Source: a virus. From it: DNA of 56,080 nt. The stretch lies in the IMG/VR virus record IMGVR_UViG_3300032053_000093, positions 1 to 56,080 of that record. One strand, written 5' to 3'. Shown here in pieces: positions 7,955 through 47,824 of this stretch. The number at the start of each line of letters is the position of its first letter. The stretch's first letter is position 1. The notes beneath the pieces were generated by a model. The model saw only the letters and a program-made list of their open reading frames with translations. It was not told the DNA's origin and searched no databases. The position numbers and the translations under genes were made by a program.

Positions 7955-7974
7955 GGCTTTTCCCTTTCTTGGTT

Positions 7975-8014
7975 GCCCGCCGGGGCTATCCCTGAGGACT
8001 GCGCCCCGGCGGGC
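7975..8014. other. Strong hairpin with 11-bp GC stem, leader element
   Basis: GCCCGCCGGGG (7975-7985) pairs with CCCCGGCGGGC (8004-8014) around an 18-nt loop, just upstream of the ribosome-binding site of the 76-aa gene. Its size and stem are close to the paired hairpins at 11121-11160 and 11209-11247, also with 18-nt loops. No T-run follows on the transcribed strand, so it is more like a leader or processing structure than a simple terminator. Confidence 0.6.
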
Positions 8015-8113
8015 TTCCTGGACGGGTGGCCGGGTCGGACGCCCTGCACCCATCCATTTTTGCGGCAGTGACGAATTCCTGCGGCCCCATCGAGAAAAAG
8101 CTGCGGGTGGACG

Positions 8114-8539: not shown

Positions 8540-11094
8540 GTTGTCTCCACGGTCACGCCGGCCACGCCGCGAGTTAGTTGCACTTGAGAGCGCAACCGCG
8601 CGGCGATCTGCGGGTCGTGGGTTACAACGACGATCATCCCGATCCGCTCGCCCAGATAGTCCAGGACGCGGAGCAAATCTTCCGTGCCCTCCGCGCCGAG
8701 GCGGTCAAACGCCTCATCCAGGAACAGACAATCCGGCTGGACGCCGTGGAGTTGGCCGACCCACAATGCGACGGCGAGGCGGAACAGAATAAGGATCAGT
8801 TGCAACTGCCCGCCGCTGTAGCGCAGGGCGTCTCGCTCGCCGCGGGCGTCGCGGATGAGGATATCGAACGCTTCTGCTACGTTGCCGTCCGCGAGAACCC
8901 GCTGCGTGGCGATCCTGAGCCGTTGCCGCCCCGCTGTGGCCCGCTCGAAGAGGTCGTCAGCAATGGCTTCCAGTTCCGGTGCGGCGTGGTCAATCAGGAT
9001 TTGGCGGACGCCCTTGGGGCCGAAGCACAGGCGGAGTTGTTCCAGGGTTTCGAGGTCGGCGGTCAGCACGGCGATCCGGTCGGATTTCACCTGCTGGCTG
9101 GCGGCTTCGCGCTTCCACGCGGCAACCTGTTCCTCCATGCGGGCGATCTCCGCGCTGAAATACTCGCTGTTGGATTGGCATCGGGTGCGACACCGGAGAC
9201 CCTCAGCGTGCCGGTCTTTGAGTCGTGTTCGCTCTTTCTCCAATGCGCTCAAATCCGCCGTGGCTTGTTTCGCCTTTGCGCGGCATTGTTCCCATTCCGA
9301 GTAGGTTTGCTCAAACTTGGCATTCGCCTCGCCCAGCCCCACGCACTTGGTTTCAAGATCACGCACGGCTTCCTGGGCCGCCGCGAGTGCCGCCGGAGCA
9401 TCTGCCAGGAGGTCAATCGCGGTTTGCAAGCGGGTGAGATCAGCCCTCTGGTCCTCGGCAGTGGGCGGGGCTTCGAGCTCGATGGTTTCAAGGTCGCGCT
9501 TGCATTTGTCAAATTCGTTTCTGAGTTCCTCAATCCGCTTGCGCGTCACCGCGAAGGCGCGTAATTGTTCCTCTGCGTTGCGGGCGCATTGCCTCTGCTG
9601 GATGAGTTGCGTCAGGTCAAAAGTAGGTTCATGGGTCGGGATGGCCGCAAGTTTGGTCTTGTAGTTCTCTGCTTCGAGTTCGTAGAGCCTAATCACCTCC
9701 GGCAGTGAGTTGTATTCCTTCAGGAGCGGGCAGAAGTTGCAGATGTCGCCACCCGGTGTTTCCGGTTTCTGAGCCATTCGGGCACGGGCTTGGTCTGCCG
9801 AATCTTCGGCGCTCCTGATATTCATGGCAAGTTGACTCCGCATGTCTTCGCGCTGAAAGTTCACTTCCGAGATGCGTTTGTTGGCTTCCAGGGCATTAGT
9901 GTACTGAATTCGGAGTCCCCCAACTTGCCAGGCCAGCGCGATGGCTTCCGCGTCCATCCCCGGCACGGCTTCAAGTTCAACCAAGAGCCGCCGGGAGGCT
10001 ATCACCTGGTACGCCGCCTTGTCGCGCTTGGCCTTCCACGCCCGCCAGGTCTCGAATACGGCCTGTTGCCCTTGAAGATCGGCCCGTTGCTTCTGGTAGT
10101 CCTTCAGGGTACTGGTGCGCTCAGTGTCGTACTCCACCATCTTGGCCCGGCTTTCCAGTCGTTGAATCTCTGTTTGCACGGCCAGCATGTGTCGTTCCGC
10201 ATCGGCAAGCGCGTTCGCTGCGCGCGCCTCGTCCTGCACCAAGCGTTCCGCTTCGGCGGCCCCGCCGTCCAGCTTGGCGATTTCCTTTTGGATGTTGTCC
10301 AGTTGCGTCTGGTATTCCTGAGCACTGGTCCGCGCGTCGTTCAAATCACCCCGAAGGGTCACAATCTCCATTTCGTCACGTTCAATGATCCAGCCATAGT
10401 CTATTCCAAACTTAGCACCCTGATGTCGCCAAAGGACGTGTGCTGGCGCTTGACACTCGGCAGGGTAATCTTTGAGTGTTTTGAGTTGGGCTTCAAGCAC
10501 CTTGCGCTCCGCCGCGTCCTCATGGATGACCTCGGCAATCCGCTCCACCTCGGCGTCCAGGTGAGATGCGCCGATCAGGTTGTTGAGAACGCCCCGGCGC
10601 CGCGCCGTCAGGTCGGGTTCTCCGGGTTGGCCGCAGAGATCGCCGTAGCGGTTCTGCGACAGGAACCAGGTCGCCAGGGCGGTGTCGGCGTCTCCGAGCA
10701 TGGCCTCAATTGCGCGGTCGAAGTCGCCGACTTTCGGGCCGGCGATACAGGGCGCATCTCCGACATGGCGAGACATGAAAAAAAGGCTTGCCTTGTGGCT
10801 CTTGGTCTTGCCTGTTGTTTTTAGGGTTCTTTCTGCTAAGTACACCTCTCCTTGATGTTCAAACTCCAGACTTATCTCCGCCTCGCCGCTGCCTCCCTGG
10901 GTCATGGCGTCGTACAGACTGCCGGGATACCACGCGAAGCGCCCGTACAACGCGGCCAGAACCGCCTCGACGCAGAACGTCTTGCCAGTGCCGTAGGGGG
11001 CGCACACGGCGATGGGGCTGTGGAGGCTGGCCCAGTTGATCTCGGTGTCGGCGTGTGGCCCGATCCCCCGGATGATGGTCTTGATGGGTTTCAT
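8536..11094 (-). CDS. SbcC/Rad50-like SMC ATPase (gp46-like)
   Basis: The start at 11094 is preceded by AAAGGAAAT and lies at the natural N-terminus MKPIKTIIRGIGPH. The 852-residue product has the Rad50 order: Walker A in PYGTGKTF (32-40), a long coiled coil (about 160-700) interrupted by a CxxC zinc-hook in GGDICNFCPLL (about 445-453), the ABC signature SGGQLQL and Walker B CLFLDEAFDRL near 790, then a D-loop and His switch VVVTHDP. With the SbcD-like nuclease it should form an ATP-dependent exonuclease/endonuclease on DNA ends and hairpins, serving phage recombination. The long hairpin leader at 11115-11253 separates it from the 96-aa gene. Confidence 0.92.
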   Translation of the reverse strand: MKPIKTIIRGIGPHADTEINWASLHSPIAVCAPYGTGKTFCVEAVLAALYGRFAWYPGSLYDAMTQGGSGEAEISLEFEHQGEVYLAERTLKTTGKTKSHKASLFFMSRHVGDAPCIAGPKVGDFDRAIEAMLGDADTALATWFLSQNRYGDLCGQPGEPDLTARRRGVLNNLIGASHLDAEVERIAEVIHEDAAERKVLEAQLKTLKDYPAECQAPAHVLWRHQGAKFGIDYGWIIERDEMEIVTLRGDLNDARTSAQEYQTQLDNIQKEIAKLDGGAAEAERLVQDEARAANALADAERHMLAVQTEIQRLESRAKMVEYDTERTSTLKDYQKQRADLQGQQAVFETWRAWKAKRDKAAYQVIASRRLLVELEAVPGMDAEAIALAWQVGGLRIQYTNALEANKRISEVNFQREDMRSQLAMNIRSAEDSADQARARMAQKPETPGGDICNFCPLLKEYNSLPEVIRLYELEAENYKTKLAAIPTHEPTFDLTQLIQQRQCARNAEEQLRAFAVTRKRIEELRNEFDKCKRDLETIELEAPPTAEDQRADLTRLQTAIDLLADAPAALAAAQEAVRDLETKCVGLGEANAKFEQTYSEWEQCRAKAKQATADLSALEKERTRLKDRHAEGLRCRTRCQSNSEYFSAEIARMEEQVAAWKREAASQQVKSDRIAVLTADLETLEQLRLCFGPKGVRQILIDHAAPELEAIADDLFERATAGRQRLRIATQRVLADGNVAEAFDILIRDARGERDALRYSGGQLQLILILFRLAVALWVGQLHGVQPDCLFLDEAFDRLGAEGTEDLLRVLDYLGERIGMIVVVTHDPQIAARLRSQVQLTRGVAGVTVETT

Positions 11095-11114: not shown

Positions 11115-11166
11115 TTTTTGCCCACCGGGGCGGCTCATTGGAGGCTAACGCCCCGGTGGGTTTTCT
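11115..11166. other. Hairpin leader element, copy 1 (11-bp stem)
   Basis: CCCACCGGGGC (11121-11131) pairs with GCCCCGGTGGG (11150-11160) around an 18-nt loop. On the leftward transcript it lies about 25 nt before the SbcC start codon. A near-copy follows at 11203-11253. The short T-run is on the plus-strand side, opposite to the transcribed direction. Confidence 0.7.
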
Positions 11167-11202: not shown

Positions 11203-11253
11203 ATTTTGCCCACCGGGGCGGCTCATTGGAGGCCAACGCCCCGGTGGTTTTTC
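11203..11253. other. Hairpin leader element, copy 2
   Basis: CCCACCGGGGC (11209-11219) pairs with GCCCCGGTGG (11238-11247), loop identical to copy 1 except one base. The copies are 88 bp apart and flank a spacer of about 40 bp. The conserved loop, not only the stem, suggests a functional RNA or protein-binding element rather than chance; alternatively a duplication. Confidence 0.7.
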
Positions 11254-16238: not shown

Positions 16239-16511
16239 TCACGCTCGTTTCCCCTTCGCCGTCGGCCTGTCAGCCTTGCGCCGTTTCCGAATCTTGGCGG
16301 CGCGTGTGGCCGGTGTGGCTTTCGGCGCGGCTCTTCCCTCCAACTGATCCAGCGCGGCCTCGATCTTCCCCAGCGTTCGCACTGTCGGGTTGTCGTTAAG
16401 GCCGCATTCGAGACAGGCCAGCGTGTTCATACTGACGCCAGCCACCTGCGCCAGAACCAGTTGCTTGATCCCCAGGGCTTTTCGCCGCGGTTGAATGTTT
16501 GCGATGTCCAT
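16239..16511 (-). CDS. XRE-family DNA-binding repressor
   Basis: The 90-residue product carries an XRE helix-turn-helix: QPRRKALGIKQLVLAQVAGV (about 7-26), then SMNTLACLECGLNDNPTVRTL and the fourth helix GKIEAALDQL. The rest is a basic Ala/Pro/Lys tail. The likely operators are GTTTACC-type palindromes at 16545-16558 and 16577-16592, overlapping and flanking its own promoter, so it probably represses itself. It is the kind of small regulator that sets the lysis or early-gene switch. The basic tail may hold a second DNA contact. Confidence 0.8.
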   Translation of the reverse strand: MDIANIQPRRKALGIKQLVLAQVAGVSMNTLACLECGLNDNPTVRTLGKIEAALDQLEGRAAPKATPATRAAKIRKRRKADRPTAKGKRA

Positions 16512-16659: not shown

Positions 16660-16824
16660 ACACCGAACATTGACACGATCTACCGGCTGGCGCGCGGCCT
16701 GGGCCTCACGCCGCACGAGTTTCTCAAACCCTTGACAGCCCCAACGGCGCCGGTGCATGATGGACTGAGTTTGGTGATGGAAGGAGGGTCACGCCATGAA
16801 ACGCAAGACATTGGAGACGGTTAG
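16660..16824 (+). pseudogene. Fragment of an XRE helix-turn-helix gene (C-terminal helices)
   Basis: A rightward frame reads TPNIDTIYRLARGLGLTPHEFLKPL, the last two helices of an XRE repressor (the usual P-N-x-x-T-x-x-x-LA-ALG-V-x-P). It then drifts into unrelated Pro/Ala residues to a stop at 16824. Upstream the frame is closed by a stop at about 16622 and has no ATG, so the N-terminal half is missing. The join falls where AT-rich DNA meets GC-rich DNA. It is the remnant of a divergently transcribed cro/cI-like gene, or of one brought in by recombination. Confidence 0.55.
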
Positions 16825-17035
16825 GATCGTCGTGGCGCGGGTGATTCCGCCGCGGACGCGCCCCTGGCTGGCGGCCGCAGTGCTCGGCATGGTTCTGCTG
16901 TGCTGGTTGCTCTGGCTGTTCAGGTGGCAGTATTTTCCAGTGGGTGAAGGTCTCGGCTTGGTCCGCGTCAACCGTTACACCGGCGAGACCGAGTGGATTG
17001 ATGCTCGGCATTGGTGGCGCAGGCTCCCGAGGTGA
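16796..17035 (+). CDS. Small single-pass membrane protein
   Basis: The only rightward gene in this part of the early region has an excellent Shine-Dalgarno (GGAAGGAGGG) 6 nt before its ATG. The 79-residue product has a basic N-terminus (KRKTLETVRIVVARVI), one membrane helix (about 24-43, WLAAAVLGMVLLCWLLWLF), then a compact tail with VNRYTGETEWIDARHWWR. That tail pattern (R-x-TGxTE-x-W) occurs in short phage membrane proteins of unknown role. By orientation the tail should face the periplasm or cytoplasm; topology cannot be fixed. It could act in superinfection exclusion, but this is only a guess. Confidence 0.7.
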   Translation: MKRKTLETVRIVVARVIPPRTRPWLAAAVLGMVLLCWLLWLFRWQYFPVGEGLGLVRVNRYTGETEWIDARHWWRRLPR

Positions 17036-21534: not shown

Positions 21535-21564
21535 TTGACACGCCAAAGGTTGGCATGATATTTT
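21535..21564 (+). promoter_or_regulatory. Rightward late promoter with internal operator
   Basis: -35 TTGACA (21535-21540) and -10 TATTTT (21559-21564) are 18 nt apart, or GATATT at 16 nt. In the spacer a perfect palindrome GCCAA-AGG-TTGGC (21542-21554) is a likely repressor site. With normal -10 to start distance, transcription would begin at about 21571-21572, on the terminase small subunit ATG. Confidence 0.65.
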
Positions 21565-35354: not shown

Positions 35355-36680
35355 ATGGCAGTTAAGATTGAGACCACATATCCGACGGGGCGAGGGCTGG
35401 CGGCGACGCTGGAACGGCTGGACAACGGCAAGCGGTGGCACAACGACGCGAGCCATGGGGCATGGGAAAACCCAGCCGTGTATGGCGACAACGCGATTGC
35501 GTTGACTGAGGGAAGCTCCGGCGACAAGGCCCTTCAGAACTACACAGGCACGACGCTGGGGGATATGGGGAGTCCGGGGAAGGTGCGGATTAGAATCCAC
35601 GAGCCATCGTTGAGCATGGTGGTGGGGATGGCGGACATCTATGTGCTGGCGAACGTGGAGGTGAGCGAGGCGGCTTATACGCTGGCGGCGGATTTCGCGG
35701 CGATCCCGGCGGCGGTGGAGGCAGCCCTGGTGGCGGATTTCGCGGCGATACCCGGTGCGGTGGAGACCGAGATGGCGCTTAAACACGGGGATGGAAACTA
35801 CGTGAGCATCCTGGGGTCCGGCGCCGATGCGGTGGGCTTGACGCTTTCGATTGAGGGTGTGGGCGTACCGGGGTTCGCGGTGTGGATCACGAACGACGCG
35901 GCGGGTGACGAGGTAGAGGCGGGGAGTCTGGCGACCGACGATAGCGGCCAGGTTCAGACGATGCTCACTGACGGGCAAACGTACTACCTGTGGGCTAATG
36001 CGCCGTCCGGGTACAACGACCTGGTGGGGGAGGAGTTCGAGGCAAACTCGGCGGAGGGGAACGAGTTCGACGTGACGGCCATTTCCGCGCCAGCCCTGGG
36101 GTCCAGCGTGTATGACCTGATCCCATTGGTCAGCCCCTATCTCACCAAGTGCCCAGAGCCGGTAGTCAAGGCGGCCTTGCGCGCAACTGCCCTGGAATTC
36201 GTCCAGGAGAGCGAGGCCCTGGTTGAGATTCAGTCTGTCACCGTTTCCGAGGCGGGCGACACAATCGCCCTGGTTTCCGCCTACGATTGCTTGACGAAGC
36301 GCGTAATGTCCATTGACCTCAACAGCGAGCAGGTGGTCAAGACGGACTATGTGGTGGGCGAGGACGCGAGCACGGGCGAGGAAGAGGTTGTGTTCGAGTA
36401 TGACCTGGACGTTTCCGATGTTCTGGATATCACCGTGGTTCTGTTGCCGAACGTGAGTTGCTACGAGTATCCGGCGTCCTTTGTGGCGCGGTGGGGCACG
36501 GCGATCTCGCAAGGCGCGTTGGCGTGGCTGTGCTCAATGCCAAAGAAGCCGTGGGCTGACCCGGACTTCGCAAAGCTTTGCGACCGGCGATTCCTGGACG
36601 GCGTGGCGCGGGCGAAGCGCGAGATGGTGGACCTGATGGAACACGACAATACGGAGATGACGCTGCCGAATTTCGAGTAG
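35355..36680 (+). CDS. Neck protein with inserted Ig/prealbumin-like domain
   Basis: The 441-residue product is a fusion of modules. Residues about 1-110 are fibre-like (GRGLAATLERLDNGKRWHN). Two Ala/Asp repeats (VEAALVADFAAIPGAVE) follow, then about 155-235 read as a prealbumin-like or Ig-like beta domain (IEGVGVPGFAVWITNDAAGD, TDDSGQVQTMLTDG). The C-terminal 190 residues look like a head-tail connector: VYDLIPLVSPYLTKCPEPVV, FVQESEALVEI and a basic helix RRFLDGVARAKREM. The last part is the usual gp10-like neck shape that binds the portal. Fusing a decoration-like domain to a connector is unusual. Confidence 0.65.
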   Translation: MAVKIETTYPTGRGLAATLERLDNGKRWHNDASHGAWENPAVYGDNAIALTEGSSGDKALQNYTGTTLGDMGSPGKVRIRIHEPSLSMVVGMADIYVLANVEVSEAAYTLAADFAAIPAAVEAALVADFAAIPGAVETEMALKHGDGNYVSILGSGADAVGLTLSIEGVGVPGFAVWITNDAAGDEVEAGSLATDDSGQVQTMLTDGQTYYLWANAPSGYNDLVGEEFEANSAEGNEFDVTAISAPALGSSVYDLIPLVSPYLTKCPEPVVKAALRATALEFVQESEALVEIQSVTVSEAGDTIALVSAYDCLTKRVMSIDLNSEQVVKTDYVVGEDASTGEEEVVFEYDLDVSDVLDITVVLLPNVSCYEYPASFVARWGTAISQGALAWLCSMPKKPWADPDFAKLCDRRFLDGVARAKREMVDLMEHDNTEMTLPNFE

Positions 36681-46089: not shown

Positions 46090-47061
46090 ATGGCACTATG
46101 GTTCACACCGCCTTGCGGAGGTTACGGGCAACCGGTGCATAGCCGCATATCCACTTTACGGACCGTCCATGCGGCTGTGGAATTTGAGGATTGGTTTGAG
46201 TACACGGGGAACTGGGCCGATACCTATGAATACGGTCTGTACGACTCGGACGACCCGGAATTCGAGCCGAATACATGGGGCTGTCATGTTCCGAATGACG
46301 CGGCGGATCACACGTCGCTGACCACTGTGGTTTACAGGATGGTTGCGGCTCGCAGTTCGGAACTTGATCGCATTGACGCCGCGTTCAACGACGCGGTTGT
46401 CACCGCCAAGATGCTACTCACCTTGATCGGGGCAACCGTTACGAGGAGAGTGGATGAGACTCAGGAGTATGAGTTCGAGGGGTCCGTTGGCCCCCTTGAT
46501 TACTATGCGGGGCAGGAAAACGTTGAAGGAGAAGAGGCTGCCGGTCAGTTTTGGTCGAAGACCACGGAATCCACCACTACGACGGGATTGCAGGTGGGGA
46601 TTTTCGGCATAATCGAACGCGAAGGGGAAGGGATTGTCGCGGACTTTCTCGGTGGCGGCGGCGGTCTTGTCGGGGTTGATCCCAATAACACAGACGCGCA
46701 GGTGGTGGATTGCGCGGAATTCGTGTCGGCGTATCTGGCGAATCGGGCAAACTATATCGGCTTCTTCTTGTGTTTCATCCCGGAAGAAGTGGATTTCAAT
46801 GAGGTTCTTGGGCCTTCCGAGGACCTGTCCGCAATGTTGAAAGCGGTCGAGGCAGCCAGCCACAAGTCAACCTTCGAGAGCGCTATCGGATGGTATCGTG
46901 TTCCTGGTTCTCCGTCACTTCCGGTTTTCATTGGAACTGACGAATATGTGGAGGTGAAGTGGCTTGGGGCGGATTCCACCAAGGGCGTCGTGAATTTCGA
47001 TCCGGCGGCGGTGACGATGCAAACGGATTCGGGGTTGTCGTATCAGACGGTGCCGGGATAG
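46090..47061 (+). CDS. Structural protein, unknown
   Basis: The 323-residue product begins MALWFTPPCGGYGQPVHSRI and carries helical and beta segments: VVYRMVAARSSELDRIDAA, DAVVTAKMLLTLIGATVTR, the Gly-rich FLGGGGGLVGVDPNN, CAEFVSAYLANRANYIGFF and a last beta part VNFDPAAVTMQTDSG. It may be a companion of the 1155-aa protein. The stop is directly at the first copy of the 35-bp repeat, and the antisense moron reading frame overlaps its last 147 nt. No motif recognised. Confidence 0.58.
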   Translation: MALWFTPPCGGYGQPVHSRISTLRTVHAAVEFEDWFEYTGNWADTYEYGLYDSDDPEFEPNTWGCHVPNDAADHTSLTTVVYRMVAARSSELDRIDAAFNDAVVTAKMLLTLIGATVTRRVDETQEYEFEGSVGPLDYYAGQENVEGEEAAGQFWSKTTESTTTTGLQVGIFGIIEREGEGIVADFLGGGGGLVGVDPNNTDAQVVDCAEFVSAYLANRANYIGFFLCFIPEEVDFNEVLGPSEDLSAMLKAVEAASHKSTFESAIGWYRVPGSPSLPVFIGTDEYVEVKWLGADSTKGVVNFDPAAVTMQTDSGLSYQTVPG

Positions 47062-47208
47062 GAGGCGCGAAATGCTGGAGCTCACATTGTTTTGCTTGAG
47101 AGATGCGGCGGCAGTTTCGAGTTTGCTGATCCGGTATTCTTGGAACGATATCATTCCCAAGAGAAACAGGATGGTGAGAATCAGAGTGATGTGCGGGATG
47201 CCTTTCAT
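46915..47208 (-). CDS. Antisense small membrane protein (moron candidate)
   Basis: On the minus strand a 97-residue ORF starts at 47208 after GGAAGGGAGAAAAACC (good Shine-Dalgarno), driven by the promoter at 47239-47267. The product reads MKGIPHITLILTILFLLGMI then a charged helix FQEYRISKLETAAASLKQNN, the look of a small signal-anchored protein with a short coil. From residue 42 it reads through the left repeat and then antisense to the 323-aa gene, ending at 46915 with basic His/Arg residues that are probably not meaningful. The functional protein may be the first 40-50 residues. Class III spanin-like, anti-host or superinfection-exclusion roles are possible; none is shown. Confidence 0.6.
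   Translation of the reverse strand: MKGIPHITLILTILFLLGMISFQEYRISKLETAAASLKQNNVSSSISRLLSRHRLIRQPRIRLHRHRRRIEIHDALGGIRPKPLHLHIFVSSNENRK
47055..47089. repeat. 35-bp perfect direct repeat, left copy
   Basis: Identical to 47268-47302 over 35 bases, with flanking bases different on both sides. Each copy carries the Shine-Dalgarno (GGAGG) and ATG of the lysozyme gene, so a 57-aa decoy frame (starting MLELTL like lysozyme) begins at 47072 in this copy. The spacing of 213 bp holds the antisense gene. Confidence 0.92.
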
Positions 47209-47238
47209 GGTTTTTCTCCCTTCCTTCATTCTGTCCTC

Positions 47239-47267
47239 AGCATAGCATGGGAAGGGATGCTTGTCAA
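47239..47267 (-). promoter_or_regulatory. Leftward promoter inside the insertion
   Basis: Minus strand -35 TTGACA (47262-47267), 17-nt spacer, -10 TATGCT (47239-47244, with TGC before it as an extended -10). The -35 ends directly at the right copy of the 35-bp repeat. Transcription would start near 47232 and give a leader of about 25 nt to the ATG at 47208. Confidence 0.72.
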
Positions 47268-47302
47268 GGGATAGGAGGCGCGAAATGCTGGAGCTCACAT
47301 TG
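47268..47302. repeat. 35-bp perfect direct repeat, right copy
   Basis: Second copy of the repeat at 47055-47089; here it holds the functional ribosome-binding site and first six codons of the lysozyme-like gene. Recombination between copies would remove 213 bp and restore a normal junction with the preceding gene. Confidence 0.92.
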
Positions 47303-47824
47303 GAACACTACGAGGACCGGTACGCCGCCATGCACGAGATTCCGGAGTGGCGGCAACGAATCTCGATTGCGGAATGTGCGGTCTTGAATAACGAACGCCT
47401 GTACAGGCGCGTGGCAATGGACGCCGGGGTGCCCTGGGAATTCATCGGACTGCTTCATCTCATGGAGGCCGGCTGCAACACAAAGCGTCAGATTCTCAAC
47501 GGCCAGCACTTTGACGCCGTGACGACCATTGTTCCCGTTGGGCGCGGCCCGTGGGACACGTGGGAGGATTCTGCGCTTGAGGCTCTGGCGAAACTGCGGG
47601 GGATGCCCGGGACGCCAGGGATGATCGCAATGGAACTGGAACGCTGGAACGGATTGGGTTATGCAAAACGGGAGATGAATTCCCCGTATCTATGGAGCGG
47701 GAGCAATCTGGGGGTGGGCGTTGGGAAATTCGTGGGGGACGGCAAGTACGATCCGCGCGCTGTGTCGGAACAGGTGGGCGGAATGGTTGTTTTGCGGCGG
47801 TTGAGGTTCAGGAATTTGGGTTGA
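47285..47824 (+). CDS. Lysozyme-like endolysin
   Basis: The 179-residue product starts MLELTLEHYEDRYAAMHEIP and has the pattern of a phage lysozyme-like family: VPWEFIGLLHLMEAGCN (catalytic Glu in the H-x-x-E segment), a central NGQHFDAVTTIVPVGRGPW, a WEDSALEAL helix and a conserved closing LERWNGLGYAKREMNSPYLWSG followed by GKFVGDGKYDPRAV. It lacks a signal peptide and so depends on a holin for access to the wall. GGAGG precedes the ATG, inside the right 35-bp repeat. It starts the lysis group. Confidence 0.85.
   Translation: MLELTLEHYEDRYAAMHEIPEWRQRISIAECAVLNNERLYRRVAMDAGVPWEFIGLLHLMEAGCNTKRQILNGQHFDAVTTIVPVGRGPWDTWEDSALEALAKLRGMPGTPGMIAMELERWNGLGYAKREMNSPYLWSGSNLGVGVGKFVGDGKYDPRAVSEQVGGMVVLRRLRFRNLG

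Follow-up and report, generated by a model that had tools for sequence, protein, structure and literature searches.

The window (the whole stretch of DNA analysed, 56,080 bases) is IMG/VR record IMGVR_UViG_3300032053_000093, a metagenome-assembled contig and the single record of an uncultivated virus. Its overall GC content is 58%, its portal protein is ~30% identical to that of Rhizobium phages, and an integrase gene with a PF00589 match lies at 541-1626 on the - strand, adjoining an HTH_17 gene; because this integrase is present, the phage is probably temperate. At the locus described here, a short segment separates an upstream late-strand gene from an endolysin-like gene, and is bounded by two copies of a direct repeat. 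The features are as follows:

46090-47061, + strand: upstream late-strand gene, 323 aa, with its stop codon inside repeat copy 1
46915-47208, - strand: leftward ORF, 97 aa; the insert accounts for 41 codons, the repeat for ~10, and sequence antisense to the upstream gene for a 46-codon tail
47055-47089, + strand: direct repeat copy 1, comprising the 3' end of the upstream ORF with its TAG stop (47059-47061), a TAGGAGG Shine-Dalgarno, an ATG (47072), and six codons that are the same as the endolysin start
47090-47267, no strand assigned: putative inserted segment ("insert"), 178 bp, 47% GC, no similar DNA found elsewhere
47239-47267, - strand: sigma-70-like promoter-like site, TTGACA-17-TGcTATGCT, whose -35 hexamer abuts repeat copy 2
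47268-47302, + strand: direct repeat copy 2, comprising a Shine-Dalgarno, an ATG (47285), and the first six codons of the endolysin-like gene
47285-47824, + strand: endolysin-like gene, 179 aa, with at most 47% identity to members of a phage family, among them a Bradyrhizobium phage protein annotated as peptidoglycan-binding

A gene junction present in two copies

The first-pass annotation had reported a perfect 35-bp direct repeat, and the two copies are indeed identical over 35 bp, with a period of 213 (3 x 71). The repeat occurs only twice in the window, and no other exact direct repeat in the 56-kb record is as long, the runner-up being 30 bp and of a different kind; the chance expectation for an exact repeat of this length is ~5e-12. 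Its first bases are GGGATAG, in which the TAG terminates the 323-aa ORF in copy 1; next come TAGGAGG, the ATG, and six codons, which in copy 2 open the 179-aa endolysin-like ORF, in agreement with the earlier statement that each copy holds the lysozyme ribosome-binding site and first six codons. A TAG stop that overlaps the Shine-Dalgarno of the next gene is also found at 36678 and 37042 in the same phage.

The upstream gene and the endolysin gene appear to have been adjacent once, because only then do both halves of the repeat have a native job. The repeat is what would be expected of an ancestral junction (stop, Shine-Dalgarno and six codons), so that the simplest history would be an insertion of 178 bp in which the junction was duplicated. 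As read from the sequence, both neighbouring genes escape damage, the duplication providing the left one with a stop and the right one with a Shine-Dalgarno and start. A repeat-flanked segment had been described before as 213 bp long; the segment is real, and its length is 178 bp, 213 being the period of the repeat.

The GC content of the insert, compared with the 58% of the window, falls at the 3rd percentile among stretches of the same size. Its DNA is single copy and had no match in phages or plasmids, and a search with its peptide likewise gave no relative. Tandem duplication of flanking DNA was rejected as its source, since the insert is only ~30% identical to either flank in ungapped comparison, and a MITE, IS, MPME or other transposon was rejected since the segment is single copy and has no terminal inverted repeats, and 35 bp is also long for a target duplication. 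An RNA element was also rejected, since there was no Rfam match and the folding of both strands was ordinary.

Other repeats were seen in the record and in a relative. A second perfect direct repeat, of 30 bp, lies at 11116-11145 and 11204-11233 on the - strand, and belongs to a GC-rich inverted-repeat element, CCACCGGGGCG...CGCCCCGGTGG, that occurs twice (11122-11159 and 11210-11247) just before the start of an SbcC-like gene near 11094; as an element of this type ahead of another gene, it was rejected as the same kind of repeat as the 35-bp one. A very stable hairpin (fold z -6.8), similar in sequence to the 11116 element, occupies about 7970-8015, ahead of the point where another early gene begins. 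On the - strand, a 19-bp exact repeat, AGTGAGTTTGCGGCGGCGG, is found at two early gene junctions, 7382 and 8114, 732 bp apart, and may represent duplicated joins elsewhere in this genome. A related viral contig with a similar capsid gene contains a 75-bp tandem repeat (L007:13609-13946).

The upstream 323-aa ORF had been called a structural gene, a label left unsupported by Pfam, PHROG and NCBIfam, none of which gave a match. The endolysin family is widespread (up to 47% identity), with representatives in Bradyrhizobium and Sphingomonas genomes among others, and its members have neighbouring genes unrelated to those here. When viral contigs were scanned for the exact 35-bp repeat, both neighbours, the insert peptide, a 1155-aa gene and a 191-aa gene, no close homologue was found, the insert peptide had no close homologue in genome contigs either, and neither a single-copy (empty) nor a filled site was seen in either scan; these scans used a few short peptide patterns that catch mainly close relatives, so that absence from them is not strong evidence. 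Relatives of the capsid were present in 26 contigs, the best being 79% identical on a contig just 8.4 kb long, and both neighbour genes were absent from all 26.

Probable leftward expression signals and open reading frame

The minus-strand promoter described previously (TTGACA, 17 nt, TATGCT) was located at 47267-47239, with a TG before the -10 hexamer. This extended -10 site scores 10/12, and, in the minus-strand reading, the insert starts with the six bases of its -35 hexamer. Across both strands of the window, few sites scoring at least 10/12 were detected; the one at 47239-47267 is the sole example inside the late gene block, and the remainder lie at the integrase/regulatory end or at 21535. 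Downstream of the promoter-like site, a Shine-Dalgarno is placed 7 nt ahead of an ATG at 47208 (- strand). The chance of this combination of signals was gauged in 200 simulated windows, in which a promoter scoring 10/12 or better ahead of a Shine-Dalgarno and ORF arose 0.07 times per window, and the same combination with a membrane segment was never obtained (0/200). The real window has two cases of promoter, Shine-Dalgarno and membrane ORF: the 47208 site, and one in the regulatory region. Judged by their sequence, the leftward promoter and translation start are probably real signals. No leftward terminator was predicted on the minus strand from the promoter down to 46000.

An operator shared with the promoters of the regulatory region was considered and rejected, since the spacer palindrome (AGCAT-N8-ATGCT) is not repeated exactly anywhere else in the window, and near matches occur at chance level. 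Another perfect TTGACA promoter-like site, with a Shine-Dalgarno and a 79-aa membrane-helix ORF, lies at 16732-17032 on the + strand; this ORF adjoins a regulator-like HTH gene (16242-16511, - strand) and has no family match.

The leftward ORF begins with an N-terminal membrane helix, MKGIPHITLILTILFLLGMISFQEYRISKLETAAASLKQNN (17-residue Kyte-Doolittle maximum, 2.33), followed by a coil-like helix, both in the part encoded by the insert. From there the frame crosses copy 1 and continues antisense to the upstream gene for 46 codons, to a stop at 46915-46917. The codon score of the insert's 41 codons (0.027) is within the range of true phage codons (0.10 +/- 0.12), and that of the antisense tail (-0.205) equals the non-coding mean (other frames, -0.21 +/- 0.13). 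A single-sequence AlphaFold prediction, which is weak evidence, shows a helix spanning residues 4-52 and disorder beyond it. The ORF also gave a weak match to the Rz-like spanin profile PHROG 739 (E = 0.021, residues 6-41 only), which is likely to be a generic helix match. Because there is no stop in the insert, the tail is non-coding in its statistics, and no terminator is predicted, the leftward gene was probably cut short on entry, or fused with an end borrowed from the target. The small signal-anchored gene proposed earlier is supported as far as its Shine-Dalgarno, its ATG at 47208 and its hydrophobic start, and fails as a complete gene, the frame leaving the insert after ~41 codons.

The rightward strand is also open. 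The frame that would extend the upstream gene past the TAG of copy 1 stays open over 70 codons, as far as the copy-2 TAG (47059-47274, + strand), because the repeat period of 213 is a multiple of three, and it sits codon-on-codon opposite the leftward frame. In this register, a real gene often leaves an open shadow frame. By a frame-aware Markov score, the leftward frame is ahead by only 0.006-0.014 per base, when true genes typically show 0.07, making strand choice by codon statistics alone nearly a tie. We prefer the leftward reading because the expression signals and base composition tip the balance.

Small antisense ORFs of the membrane type were seen upstream of distant endolysin matches (L028, L030, L068 and L075), a slight excess with few independent cases. 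As a recurrent feature before the endolysin family, an antisense membrane ORF was rejected: it was found at 8/71 loci versus 3.1% at random, but 4/8 are near-identical and almost none has a promoter.

Proposed history of the segment and alternatives

We consider it moderately probable that the segment is a recent insertion at a late-gene junction, placing a moron-like, leftward start of a membrane-anchored protein against the late operon; it is most likely a recent moron or moron fragment. That the change went in the direction of insertion is something we infer from one sequence. In the ancestor, the TAG of the 323-aa gene would have overlapped the endolysin Shine-Dalgarno. A 178-bp, AT-richer fragment would have entered there, bringing with it a leftward sigma-70 promoter, a Shine-Dalgarno and ~41 codons from the start of a gene for a membrane-anchored protein, so that 35 bp of the junction would now lie on both sides, with the upstream stop and the endolysin Shine-Dalgarno and start intact. 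The C-terminus of the membrane-anchored peptide would now come from the repeat and antisense sequence. Moron-like action would consist of leftward expression under the segment's own control, opposed to the late operon and plausibly in a lysogen, and the peptide might function at the membrane, superinfection exclusion being the usual role. Recombination between the repeats could remove the segment. The suggestion that this is an added gene with its own control is consistent in part with these features: the leftward promoter, Shine-Dalgarno and membrane start, the GC shift and the duplicated junction fit it, and a terminator and a complete ORF are absent. Counted against the insertion and moron reading are the lack of a stop for the leftward ORF within the insert, the lack of a predicted terminator, the rightward frame that is open too and almost level in codon statistics, and the failure of the contig scans to show an empty or filled site in a relative.

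The same deficits are accommodated if the segment is non-functional debris, a promoter and truncated 5' end of a gene joined by illegitimate recombination, with the 35-bp duplication as a by-product and deletion yet to come. This origin is possible, if rather unlikely. The coding character of the leftward ORF drops at the insert border, no terminator is predicted, the perfection of the repeats implies youth, and the authors of the LRRHood study give the same alternative for their segment (PMC3029335); however, there is no reason for random debris to have an undamaged promoter, Shine-Dalgarno and membrane start at good spacing, as the segment does.

Two further functions seem improbable. The useful product might be a leftward antisense RNA that overlaps the 323-aa gene in its 3' part and keeps this gene in check in a lysogen or in superinfecting relatives, a reading that we doubt. 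Transcription from the promoter would enter the upstream gene, no terminator is predicted as far as 46000, and there is a precedent in STnc6030 of Salmonella prophage BTP1, proposed to act on structural genes (PMC7067206), but the well-spaced Shine-Dalgarno, the ATG and the membrane helix suggest translation, and RNA folding is not unusual (z -0.75) and there is no Rfam match. It is similarly doubtful that the segment is a minimal revertible moron cassette, in which a promoter and membrane-anchor start would be completed by a coil end supplied by the junction, and which would insert and delete without harm to the neighbours.

Ordinary rightward sequence, whether it lengthens the upstream gene at the C-terminus or is intergenic DNA, with copy 1 as a 35-bp duplicate of the endolysin start, is very improbable. 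The period of 3 x 71, the upstream frame open from the copy-1 TAG to the copy-2 TAG, and the close tie in codon statistics agree with it, but removing copy 1 leads to a stop within four codons, so that keeping the frame needs replacement rather than insertion, and the GC shift and the combination of promoter, Shine-Dalgarno and membrane start would have to be coincidence. A metagenome contig could contain a chimeric join, and this one is the only record of an uncultivated virus, with a join seen in no relative, but an assembly or amplification chimera is the least probable of these origins, because the duplication matches a functional junction exactly and organised expression signals are present in the insert.

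If the recent insertion is confirmed, the locus would provide a clean snapshot of an extra gene entering a tightly packed late operon, in which the duplicated stop, Shine-Dalgarno and start junction spares both neighbours and gives a ready route for loss.

Comparison with known phage elements

Phage morons include lambda bor and lom, and HK97 gp15, and lambda bor is leftward and beside the lysis genes. The segment resembles morons, whose small product is expressed in the lysogen, in having its own promoter-like site and in its position within and against late genes, and differs from them in that no terminator is predicted, the gene is incomplete within the insert, and the flanks are duplicated. 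Among the features that define a moron, we found its own promoter-like site and deviating composition, and did not find its own terminator or a complete ORF in the insert.

Start-Associated Sequences, GGGATAGGAGCCC, occur 11-19 times per genome in cluster K mycobacteriophages (PMC3203893), and the 35-bp repeat likewise begins with GGGATAGGAG just ahead of an ATG. Identity with these sequences was rejected, since matches in the window show no excess over chance and the 35-bp repeat has only two copies.

The design had been thought to lack a described precedent, a view we do not share, because both LRRHood (PMC3029335) and antisense moron loci (PMC7067206) come close. In Salmonella prophage ST64B, STMMW_20121 is antisense to lytic genes, has its own promoter, and is described as typical of morons (PMC7067206). 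STnc6030 of BTP1 is an antisense RNA reported to cover structural genes and to exclude superinfecting phage (PMC7067206), and the candidate transcript here is likewise antisense to a late gene and from inside the late region; unlike the segment here, STnc6030 is a long RNA, with no membrane-protein start and no repeat-flanked segment.

In mycobacteriophage LRRHood, a 1.35-kb segment (genes 43-46) is bounded by direct repeats of 29 bp, of which one sits where the upstream gene ends and the other ahead of the downstream gene, and the repeat is single in relatives (PMC3029335). Its authors proposed recombination, and noted that the segment may be adventitious (PMC3029335). An immunity-type cargo has been proposed. 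Both loci have extra DNA between neighbouring genes, and a direct repeat of ~30 bp at the upstream gene end and before the downstream gene. The LRRHood segment is 1.35 kb, with four genes that have known homologues, and has single-copy relatives, whereas here the extra DNA is 178 bp, holds part of one gene, and no relatives were found. As a putative insertion with a candidate protein start, the segment is best filed as a very small example of the known repeat-flanked or moron insertions, and would add one very small case to the few repeat-flanked phage insertions described.
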